Of a DNA stretch of 64,000 nt, positions 59,059 to 62,767 are shown in pieces; position 1 is the first letter of the stretch; each line of letters opens with the position of its first letter. A program made the translations under genes and the position numbers. This DNA comes from an uncultured Bacteriovoracaceae bacterium. GTDB lineage: Bacteria; Bdellovibrionota; Bacteriovoracia; Bacteriovoracales; Bacteriovoracaceae. A model generated the notes under the pieces. The model was given only the letters and a program-made list of their open reading frames with translations, had not been told where the DNA came from and ran no database searches. The stretch spans positions 1 to 64,000 of the forward strand of contig CATLOT010000009.1 in assembly GCA_950054155.1 (NCBI GenBank), given 5' to 3'.

Positions 59059-59619
59059 TTAAGCTGCTTTTTTACCAGCATCTTTGCTTTGAACAGGCAC
59101 AGAGAATTTGACTCCACCGGCCATGCTTACTTCGCAACCCTCTTCTCTAAGGCTGAGATGAACACCGGCCATTTCCACGACGAGAGAACCATCCACAACA
59201 TTGACAGTTGCTGTCTCGCTTCCAATAGAGAAATTTAGCTCCATATTCATCTGACCACCGCCAGAAAAAGACATATGACCCGCTTCGCCACTCGTTGTAG
59301 CGACAGGCTTTAAGGCCACGACATTATCTTCATTGCTTTCAGTTGCTTCTGGCTCTGTTGGTGTTGCTTCTGACTCATAGGCTTCCGCTTCAGCACTAAA
59401 GTCTTCAACTTCCTCTTCAGCGACCTCTTGAGGAGCTTCCTGAGACGCATGAACTTCTTCAGTCTCTGCCGGAGCCTCTGAAACACTTTCAGTTGCTGCA
59501 TCTTGCGGCGTATCAGACTCTTCTACGAACTCTTTTTCGAGATTTTCGATCTCATTCATAATGTCCTGAAGCTCTGCATCGTTAAAACTTTGTTCCGTGT
59601 TATTGTCCTGATCTGACAT
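59059..59619 (-). CDS. Acidic protein with a C-terminal beta domain
   Basis: 186 residues from ATG 59619, with GGAGG upstream. The first ~110 residues are strongly acidic, full of E, A, S and T repeats (EAPAETEEV, EEEVEDFSAEAEAYE), and probably disordered. The last ~75 residues contain a small beta domain: MSFSGGGQMNMELNFSIG, TVNVVDGSLVVEMAG and CEVSMAGGVKFSVP. It ends in KKAA. No signal peptide, no family known; it lies 32 nt from rsmD on the same strand. Confidence 0.75.
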   Translation of the reverse strand: MSDQDNNTEQSFNDAELQDIMNEIENLEKEFVEESDTPQDAATESVSEAPAETEEVHASQEAPQEVAEEEVEDFSAEAEAYESEATPTEPEATESNEDNVVALKPVATTSGEAGHMSFSGGGQMNMELNFSIGSETATVNVVDGSLVVEMAGVHLSLREEGCEVSMAGGVKFSVPVQSKDAGKKAA

Positions 59620-59896
59620 CTTGGCCTCCAAATATACAACCAGAAGTTTAGCTCTCTATCGGTCTATTTCGTGGGAGGCTTTAACTTTTTAATTCTCTGA
59701 CACCCCACTCCGGTATAATCATCCCTAAAGTGTCATTTTTTTGTCGAAAAAGTATCATCTTACACTTCGGATGTTATTGTTTTTCCTCCTTTCTTTCATG
59801 ACAATCTGACTTCATTTACGTTAAATTTCTTACCCACAACAAATGACAGTGAACAAAAGATCAAAATGAAAGATCAGCAATATTGGGAGCTTAGAC

Positions 59897-62767
59897 TTGT
59901 CTAAACGCGGCTTTCGCGCCAATTCTTGGCTCCAAAACATGAACGGGAATCTTCCCCTAGAAGGCGACTTACACCCTTCTGAGAATGATTCTTACAGCTT
60001 TGAAAGAAGTGCTCTTCCTCCTCTGCCACAGGAGAAGGCAGGCTTCTCTCCAAGCCGCTATCTCATACCAGGTTGGTCTGGATCTTCACTATTCACGAAA
60101 TCAGCTATCGCCGTCAAAAAACTTCAAGAAAGCCTTTGGGAAGATGCCAGCAGCTGTTTTAAAACAATGGGTGGTTTTCCAAGAAGCCTCTCCCTTGCCA
60201 TTCATAATGAATTTATTTCTTTTATTGAAAGACAAGGAATAGCGATAACAAGTGAGCTTAGTGAATTAAAGAAGCTTGAAAATTTTTGGGCCCACCTCAT
60301 TAAGGTCAGTAACGCGAAAGATGATTCCCCTCACAAAGAAATTCTTGAAAGCTTTATCGAACTCTATAGCTTTCGTGTGGCCACAAACTTTCTCTTTCGC
60401 CTTAAGTTTCTTGTCACTTATGCCAATGCTACGGGCTTTGAATATAGCCGCAGTCATATCCTCAACCCGAGTAGCTTTGCTCAACAGCTCTTTAGACGAG
60501 GCTCCACCCATGAGATAACCTGTGAAGCCTTCAAAATAAATCAGTACTCTTGGTATCGACCTTGTGAAAGGCTTGCTCTGGAGATTGAAAAGCTCATTCC
60601 AAGCTTTCAAGAACTCTCCGTTACCCAACTGATGAAAATCAATTGCTATCGTGGTTTTAACGACTGCCAAAAATCAATTCGCTTTGAGGATGATTCTTAT
60701 AGCCATGCCCTTTCTCACAAGAGCTTTGGCCGCTTCATTAGTCAGCTTCTGATCTTTTTTCCAATTTGGAATTCCCAAGAGAAGTTTCAATACCCTCGTG
60801 AGAAGTTTACTCTACGCCCAGAAGTCCTCAACACTCTTTTCACTGGGGACAATGTCGAAAGCCTCGGTCAAAGCCATTGGCTCTCTCAAGAGTCGAACCT
60901 CAACAAGTCATGGAGTGAAATTCTCTGCCCCGAGTTTGCGGCAAATGAGAAAAATGGCAACACCTTTGTTAAACTCACCCAAGAACTTCAGTTTCTTACC
61001 TTCTTAGTCGATTTTTCAAATGGCAAGAAGATGAATACGAGAGAACTTCTTTCAAGAGTGACAAGAGAGAAGTTTAAAAAGACCAAAGAGCAACTCGGTC
61101 AGTTCAGTCTTTTTTCTAATAAAGAATTAGCCTACGATCGTATTGTTCTCAATGTCTCAAAGCTACCAAAGAAAAATCCTCATCATTTCCTTACTCAAAA
61201 GATCCTCTCTCAAAAGGACTCTCTTCTTGACCAAGGCTACATGGTTGTTATGTCCAACCAAAAGCTCTTTGTCCCCAGTCAATCAAAGAAGGTTTCACTG
61301 CTTCTTAAAGACTTTAAAATTGAAGGAGTTTTTAATTTAGAGAAACTTAAAGGCAAGGGAGAGGTCACAAACTTCATCTATATTCTCAAGAAGCGTATCG
61401 GGACTCAGTTTAATAAAGATCTTCTTAAGCTTGATCCCTCCTCACTTGTTTCTAAAGATGAGAATCCCCAAGAGTCATGCTTTACTCTTCGCTTTTCAGG
61501 TGAGCTCAAACAGTTCCTTCACTTTGAGGCAGTGGTATCAGAGATCCAGCAGTTCTTTATGAAGAAGTCGAGTTTTTCGACCTCTATGTATCATCAAAAT
61601 CTAGACTATGACCTCGCTTTTGAATTCCACCAAGATGCTATTATCGATGGCAAGCTTTTAAGCTCTTTGTCTGGGGATAATGATCACATTACTCACCCTC
61701 ACTTTTTTAAGAATCTCACGAAAAGCTCTATCCCCTTTGAAAGTCTTTTCACTGTGGATGACCTCGATGCTCCTAACCGCAATAATCTAAAGCAAAGTCT
61801 ACTCGGTAGCGCTAATCGCTCCCGCCACTCGGGTAGCCACCAGATTCTTATTGTCGATCTTAAGGACCCGCTTTATCCAAGAATTGAGTTGTGCCCTAGC
61901 TCGACTTACTCGGCTAAGAGACAAGAGTATGGCGAGGCCTTTTACAATTATTACAGCATTACTCAAAAGCACCCTCAATTTAACTATAATCTCCTACGCT
62001 CTTTCTTTGAGTCACCCATTGGTGAGCAAATTGTCCAAATCTGTCTTAGAGGAGGAGTGAGTAAAATTAAGGGGCGTCTGCGCTCTTTGCTTATCCCTAA
62101 GTTCTTAGCAGAAGGCATTAATCTTGAGCAAAGTGACTTTGCCTCTTCTTTTCTTCTCAAGCTGACAGAAAAAGAAATTCTCGAATCTGATCCAAAGCAC
62201 TTTTCTATAAAAGTAACCAATGAGATTACAGAGCTTCAGGCTAAGAAAGGCAACAGCCTCTGGGCCTATATGAGCCTCCTCATTCATACACGTAAGTCGC
62301 TAGCCCTTACTCTAGAAAATAGCCAAGAAACCAAGAAAAGCGGTCTTGGCCTTAATAGCCCTATGGCCCTTGAGTCCCTCATGGAGCTTGAAACCTTTTG
62401 TGTCTACCCCAACGAAGAGGTTTTCACTGAGCTTCTTATTGATAGAAAAGAAGATCTAGATCGCCCTTTTTCTTCAACTAGTCTAACCCATGGCGACTCA
62501 CCTCTTCTTGAAGTCTTTTCAGGAAATGAAGTTCTCATTAAGTTTCACGCTGAAATTGAGCTCCTTCAATTTATAGACTTTGTCCTCTCTCAAGCCTCTG
62601 GCCATAGTCTCCTAAGCCTCCTTCAAAATCTCTATATTCCGAGACTCTCTGAACTAAAGGAGCTCAGCCTTAAGGTCAAAAACTCAAGAGACTCTCTTAA
62701 AGAGCTTCTCAATAATTTAGATGGGCTCATCCACCGCGAATTCACTGACGTTCTTACTCGAGTATAA
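59897..62767 (+). CDS. N6-adenine methyltransferase / HsdS-like protein lacking catalytic motifs
   Basis: 956 residues from TTG 59897, with GGGAG 7 nt upstream (ATG 59939 is a fallback). Residues ~1-300 are unassigned. Residues ~400-500 follow the HsdM/N6-adenine-methylase pattern: YDRIVLN, then KILSQKDSLLDQGYMVVM, IEGVFNLEKLKG and FIYILKK, matching the strands after motif IV and the terminal LP-rich part. The catalytic NPPY is replaced by NVSK (419-422) and I find no motif I glycine-rich loop. Residues ~600-735 resemble an HsdS target-recognition domain, ending GGVSKIKGRLRSLLIPKF (about 718-735). The last ~200 residues are helical. It is probably a pseudo-methyltransferase; assignment is by pattern, not search. 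Confidence 0.75.
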   Translation: MSKRGFRANSWLQNMNGNLPLEGDLHPSENDSYSFERSALPPLPQEKAGFSPSRYLIPGWSGSSLFTKSAIAVKKLQESLWEDASSCFKTMGGFPRSLSLAIHNEFISFIERQGIAITSELSELKKLENFWAHLIKVSNAKDDSPHKEILESFIELYSFRVATNFLFRLKFLVTYANATGFEYSRSHILNPSSFAQQLFRRGSTHEITCEAFKINQYSWYRPCERLALEIEKLIPSFQELSVTQLMKINCYRGFNDCQKSIRFEDDSYSHALSHKSFGRFISQLLIFFPIWNSQEKFQYPREKFTLRPEVLNTLFTGDNVESLGQSHWLSQESNLNKSWSEILCPEFAANEKNGNTFVKLTQELQFLTFLVDFSNGKKMNTRELLSRVTREKFKKTKEQLGQFSLFSNKELAYDRIVLNVSKLPKKNPHHFLTQKILSQKDSLLDQGYMVVMSNQKLFVPSQSKKVSLLLKDFKIEGVFNLEKLKGKGEVTNFIYILKKRIGTQFNKDLLKLDPSSLVSKDENPQESCFTLRFSGELKQFLHFEAVVSEIQQFFMKKSSFSTSMYHQNLDYDLAFEFHQDAIIDGKLLSSLSGDNDHITHPHFFKNLTKSSIPFESLFTVDDLDAPNRNNLKQSLLGSANRSRHSGSHQILIVDLKDPLYPRIELCPSSTYSAKRQEYGEAFYNYYSITQKHPQFNYNLLRSFFESPIGEQIVQICLRGGVSKIKGRLRSLLIPKFLAEGINLEQSDFASSFLLKLTEKEILESDPKHFSIKVTNEITELQAKKGNSLWAYMSLLIHTRKSLALTLENSQETKKSGLGLNSPMALESLMELETFCVYPNEEVFTELLIDRKEDLDRPFSSTSLTHGDSPLLEVFSGNEVLIKFHAEIELLQFIDFVLSQASGHSLLSLLQNLYIPRLSELKELSLKVKNSRDSLKELLNNLDGLIHREFTDVLTRV

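Follow-up and report, generated by a model that had tools for sequence, protein, structure and literature searches.

A conserved, catalytically empty methylase/TRD-type protein of the Bacteriovoracaceae with a candidate sliding-clamp-binding peptide

What can a protein built like a DNA methylase do once the catalytic motifs of a methylase are gone? This question is raised by a large gene of an uncultured Bacteriovoracaceae bacterium, located near the end of the window, that is, the whole stretch of 64,000 nucleotides analysed here (assembly GCA_950054155.1, contig CATLOT010000009.1). An earlier note had described its product as a pseudo-methyltransferase with an HsdS-like domain, probably functional in a new role, such as DNA binding or defence sensing. 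The literature searches carried out yielded nothing on this protein. The account with the best support is that the Bacteriovoracaceae have domesticated it as a non-catalytic DNA-recognition protein; to the more specific reading, in which this methylase/specificity-derived core protein is tethered to the sliding clamp by a Q-x-x-L-F peptide, we assign a probability of roughly 0.45.

59897..62767, + strand: whole gene, encoding a non-catalytic methylase/TRD-type protein of 956 amino acids with a TTG start (open reading frame, homologues, omega)

The open reading frame fills exactly this interval without interruption, in agreement with the earlier statement that it contains no frameshift. Its TTG start codon is preceded by GGGAG, which resembles a ribosome-binding site, and is supported by the homologues, nearly all of which begin at the same place, mostly with TTG or GTG, with the conserved N-terminus M-x-K-x-x-F-x-A-x-x-W-L. 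The weak start codon (59897-59899 in the window) is itself conserved: among 68 homologues with a clear N-terminus (from loci L001-L110), 48 start with TTG and 9 with GTG, versus 11 with ATG. This may hold expression at a low level.

No convincing match was obtained in sequence searches of Pfam, NCBIfam or the PDB, either with the protein alone or as an alignment, and none of 30 family members matched Pfam. When compared by hhalign with 82 HsdM and 25 HsdS sequences, the best E-values were about 0.03-0.2, which are not significant, with the top alignments in the expected register. The fold was approached through two AlphaFold models, built with window and related-locus sequences as input, one for the window protein (pLDDT 84) and the other for a homologue 29% identical to it (pLDDT 85). 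Both models contain a class I methylase fold and a C-terminal TRD, and significant Foldseek matches are of that kind. Against the PDB, the window protein reaches an E-value of 3.9e-6 and the distant homologue 3.1e-6, and all PDB matches of the two models with E <0.001 are methylases, nearly all of them N6-adenine DNA methylases or their complexes, including M.BseCI, CamA, HsdM proteins, PacII, BpuSI, BsaXI, and BREX BrxX/PglX. Among viral models, the best matches are giant-virus methylase/specificity proteins, aligned over the full length (E 9e-10). The TM-scores remain low (about 0.2), since the alignments extend over several domains; the type of fold can thus be taken as firm, but not the details of its geometry. 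The protein is predicted to combine a gamma-class N6-adenine methylase fold with HsdS-like DNA-recognition halves, in the following layout:

59912..59932, + strand: N-terminal short motif F-x-A-x-x-W-L, residues 6-12 (W11 conserved at 0.99, variable flanks)
60032..60796, + strand: helical N-terminal domain, residues 46-300 (AlphaFold model)
60797..61396, + strand: degenerate Rossmann-type methylase core, residues 301-500 (model, Foldseek, domain conservation)
61397..62131, + strand: first TRD-like region, residues about 501-745, with approximate boundaries (model, Foldseek matches to TRD-bearing methylases)
62132..62356, + strand: helical spacer resembling the central conserved region of HsdS, residues about 746-820 (model)
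62357..62644, + strand: second, smaller TRD-like region, residues about 821-916 (model)
62645..62764, + strand: long helix at the C-terminus, comparable to the second conserved helix in HsdS, residues 917-956 (model, helix at 917-954)

The first of these elements, possibly a second docking peptide, is followed by a disordered stretch (residues 14-45, with pLDDT <50 for 14-40). No other domain of the family is as well conserved as the core at 301-500; strand beta3 of the methylase fold is absent from it in both models, strands having been assigned from the order of elements. The second TRD-like region falls in register with TRD2 of HsdS in hhalign (E about 0.05, not significant). The likeness to type I/IIG methylases and to HsdS claimed by the earlier note holds at the level of the predicted fold and fails at the level of sequence, where no profile reached significance. 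That note had named a structure with neither a methylase nor a TRD fold as evidence against its reading; the models give the opposite result.

The loss of the catalytic motifs has been followed in an alignment of 81 sequences, comprising the window protein and 80 homologues. Two sites typical of methylases are occupied by motifs of the family's own:

60839..60892, + strand: family motif F-x-G-D-x-L-x-S-L-x-x-S-H-W-L-A-Q-E, residues 315-332, where SAM motif I is expected (81-sequence column counts)
61151..61186, + strand: N-V-S-K-L-P-K-K-N-P-H-H, residues 419-430, replacing the catalytic NPPY motif IV (column counts)

At the position of motif IV, the window protein reads YDRIVLNVSK, in which NVSK corresponds to N419-K422 (61151-61162); the sequence after it resembles motifs V-VIII. 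The replacement of NPPY by NVSK and the lack of a SAM-binding loop, both pointed out previously, extend to the whole alignment: a [DNS]PP[YFWH] tetrapeptide is absent anywhere in 81/81 sequences, and a G-x-G type SAM loop is absent from region 301-361 in all 81. In their place, the family shows at the motif IV site the nearly invariant consensus N-L-x-x-[LF]-P-K-x-N-P-H-H (N419, P424, and K425 in 80/81 sequences each, and N427 in 81/81), and the motif at residues 315-332 is likewise nearly invariant. Close active homologues retaining NPPY, which would mark the gene as a recent dead copy, were looked for among the 80 aligned homologues and none keeps it; since the motifs are missing from all sequences, a recent dead copy of an active enzyme has been ruled out. 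The motif loss, together with the near-invariant motifs of its own and the best-conserved core, argues for a definite function other than standard methyl transfer.

The distribution of the gene was determined in 59 related genomes and then, with a profile, in 369 genomes from across the phylum. In the family, which comprises Bacteriovoracaceae, Halobacteriovorax and relatives, the profile search detected it in 125/129 genomes, and it was found in none of the 240 genomes from elsewhere in the phylum. Completeness is 56-88% for the four family genomes that lack a match, and all 73 family genomes with at least 90% completeness and at most 5% contamination have one. No relatives were found in the viral contigs searched. 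The gene is nearly always single-copy. Two genomes (G078 and G125) hold two full-length matches each; G078 is 9% contaminated, so these double matches may represent mixtures rather than paralogues. In a reduced family genome of 1.6 Mb, the gene is kept only in strongly diverged form, in a frame of 769 aa whose matches are weak and partial (G034:C32:4767-6152).

The surroundings of the gene are also conserved. In most loci, aspC, coaD, rsmD, and a small unknown gene lie on one strand, with the pseudo-methylase gene divergent from them and often followed by a ChaN-like gene, a conserved protein, and a TonB-like gene. The gene aspC is present in 72/80 loci and rsmD in 71/80, some loci ending early. 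The immediate upstream neighbour is listed for context only:

59059..59631, - strand: divergent small conserved gene, constant upstream neighbour (adjoins the pseudo-methylase gene in 69/80 loci)

This small gene encodes an acidic protein of 190 aa with a conserved N-terminal segment (FNDAELQDIMNEIE) and a glycine-rich, strand-like C-terminus, for which Pfam yielded a sub-threshold match only and no convincing family. For close homologue pairs of the pseudo-methylase gene, omega (Nei-Gojobori) is about 0.01-0.07, values that are rough because several pairs have high dS. The gene is vertically inherited in a fixed housekeeping neighbourhood; it belongs to the core genes, is subject to strong purifying selection, and is neither a relic nor a mobile defence gene. 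Conservation and purifying selection in relatives had been proposed as a check on the earlier reading, and both are found. Along with the fold in two models and the family-wide motif loss, they bear out the description of a pseudo-methyltransferase with an HsdS-like domain that probably functions in a new role.

As for what this role may be, a clue is provided by a short peptide that was noticed after the fact:

61100..61114, + strand: Q-F-S-L-F, residues 402-406, candidate beta-sliding-clamp-binding peptide (disordered loop, conservation, DnaE likeness)

The bacterial clamp-binding consensus is QL[S/D]LF or QxxLF, with positions 1, 4, and 5 being critical (PMC12309361). In the family, Q402 is conserved in 78/81 sequences, a relaxed Q-x-x-[LMIF]-[FL] in 71/81, and the strict Q..[LM]F in 24/81, the third position of the relaxed form being most often S or N, and one large clade carries QxLLL instead. 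Both models leave the loop unstructured, in the position expected for strand beta3, and its flanks differ among homologues in sequence as well as in length; W11 and Q402 stand out as residues conserved within otherwise variable, disordered stretches. Neighbouring gene families were used as the null, and the seven well-sampled ones show no conserved QxxLF-type motif (best 0.43). The window genome encodes DnaN, the sliding clamp, as well as a DnaE with GQVSLF and an ImuB-like protein with QLSLF. Across the family, DnaE mostly carries GQ[VSTIG][SN]LF, and within the same genus LGQVSLF in DnaE is near-identical to LGQFSLF or LGQFNLF in the pseudo-methylase. Patterns of the form X..[LIMF][FLM] that begin with another residue are also conserved in folded regions of the protein (E363, H600, and N454), which makes the QxxLF pattern weak when taken alone. 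Its position coincides with that of motif III/strand beta3, of which it could thus be a structural leftover. On sequence and models together, we give a clamp tether through this peptide somewhat less than even odds. To our knowledge, no clamp client with the framework of a catalytically empty methylase/TRD protein has been described.

According to these data, it can be proposed that a single-chain protein of methylase-plus-specificity (HsdM-HsdS-like) architecture would have ceased to transfer methyl groups no later than in the common ancestor of the family, and would have been recruited as a core, non-catalytic DNA-recognition protein. Its putative TRD-like halves would still bind DNA, recognising sequence or structure, which is plausible. 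The Q-x-x-L-F peptide would dock on the beta sliding clamp, holding the protein at replication forks or on freshly replicated DNA, and there the protein would mark, organise or survey the new DNA instead of methylating it. Within this proposal, the supported part consists of the predicted fold, the family-wide motif loss, the new invariant motifs, vertical inheritance, and purifying selection. The full scenario, in which a single domestication, in the ancestor of this predatory family, turned a restriction-type methylase into a non-enzymatic, replisome-associated DNA-recognition protein riding the sliding clamp, is put forward tentatively, as something that falls short of an even chance.

Several other explanations have been weighed. 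The resemblance of the fold to HsdM, BpuSI, and BREX BrxX/PglX would suit a defence-related sensor or a remnant of a restriction or BREX system, yet the gene is nearly always single-copy, vertically inherited, universal in the family and fixed among housekeeping genes, a PADLOC scan gave no meaningful match, and the viral contigs searched yielded no relative. Moreover, there is no HsdR partner at the locus, whose genes are aspC, coaD, rsmD, the small unknown gene, and the ChaN-like and TonB-like genes, and the whole window genome lacks matches to PF02384 (HsdM) or PF01420 (HsdS) at E <= 0.001, so that neither a restriction system nor a defence island is involved. The earlier remark that no restriction subunit lies nearby is confirmed, and defence sensing loses its footing; a restriction, BREX or defence remnant is rejected on this evidence, and, like a sensor of this kind, is very improbable. 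We see just as little prospect for an active methylase with unrecognised motifs: G317 and an acidic residue at 346 are placed in a way reminiscent of motifs I and II, but the GxG loop and any NPPY-like tetrapeptide are missing from 81/81 sequences, and strand beta3 from both models. A replacement for missing mismatch repair was also considered and ruled out, MutL being present.

Two further possibilities retain the ancient core and differ in its use. The same non-catalytic core protein could bind chromosomal DNA or act as a regulator with no link to the clamp, QxxLF being a remnant of motif III/beta3 or an internal packing element. The peptide does lie at the expected place of motif III, 11-16 residues before YDRIVLN, and many homologues depart from the strict clamp motif; nevertheless, the disorder of the segment in both models and its variable flanks are unusual for a packed strand, and Q at position 1 with S or N at position 3 suits clamp peptides, so we regard this alternative as rather unlikely, though it is the strongest of those considered. 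Less probable still is a repurposed enzyme, in which F-x-G-D...S-H-W-L-A-Q-E and N-L-x-x-L-P-K-x-N-P-H-H would build, within the former methylase cleft, a new active site or a pocket for a ligand. Such a site would fit the high conservation of the core and its many invariant polar residues (H327, Q331, N419, K425, N427, and H430), but these may serve structure or binding, no known enzyme motif was recognised, and there is no family or PDB sequence match.

The clamp-tethered, non-catalytic DNA-recognition protein that we favour can be set beside several known systems. M.BseCI and CamA from Clostridioides difficile, the best or near-best PDB matches, share the predicted catalytic core followed by a TRD; compared with them, the pseudo-methylase lacks motif I, the NPPY of motif IV and strand beta3, adds a helical N-domain and a second TRD-like half, and is longer (956 versus about 550-580 aa). 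As with CamA (PMC8187626), its gene is an orphan that belongs to the core genes of a single clade. HsdM-HsdS and giant-virus HsdM-HsdS-like fusions show the same domain order (helical domain, methylase core, TRD, helical spacer, TRD, long helix), whereas the pseudo-methylase differs from type I HsdM-HsdS in being one chain, without the motifs or HsdR, encoded by a chromosomal core gene, and with no significant sequence similarity. BREX BrxX/PglX, a Foldseek match of the second model (E 3.1e-6), is also a large single-chain methylase with a TRD; in contrast, the pseudo-methylase has no BREX genes around it, no catalytic motifs and a different distribution. The clamp clients DnaE and ImuB present a short QxxLF-type peptide in a flexible segment, which the candidate peptide of the pseudo-methylase resembles, clamp binding by the latter being only predicted, and CrfC is an example of a non-polymerase client (PMC6374313). 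One class I methyltransferase, Bd1029, has been reported as common to intraperiplasmic predators (PMC11656739); it is shared with Bdellovibrio, unlike the pseudo-methylase gene, which was not found outside its own family.

New with respect to the first reading are the family-wide conservation and the clamp-binding-like motif. The domesticated orphan bacterial methylases Dam, CcrM, and CamA remain enzymes; compared with them, a methylase/TRD protein that is catalytically empty and universally retained is unusual, and this one was invisible to Pfam, NCBIfam, and PDB sequence searches. If the clamp binding is true, predators that grow and divide within their prey would possess a replication-associated protein of a new kind. 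Eukaryotic DNMT1 is a clamp-recruited methylase, of which the pseudo-methylase would be a bacterial counterpart without catalysis.

Two other observations concern genes elsewhere in this genome. The ImuB-like protein, a Y-family member, adjoins a second DnaE-type polymerase (L125 and L120, G000:C15), as in the ImuB-DnaE2 mutasome cassette. In addition, the same contig encodes, about 9.5 kb after the window ends (L124:14511-14897, - strand), a protein of 128 aa made up almost entirely of K-K-A-T-K-K-K-V-A-K repeats, which resembles histone H1-type bacterial chromatin proteins.
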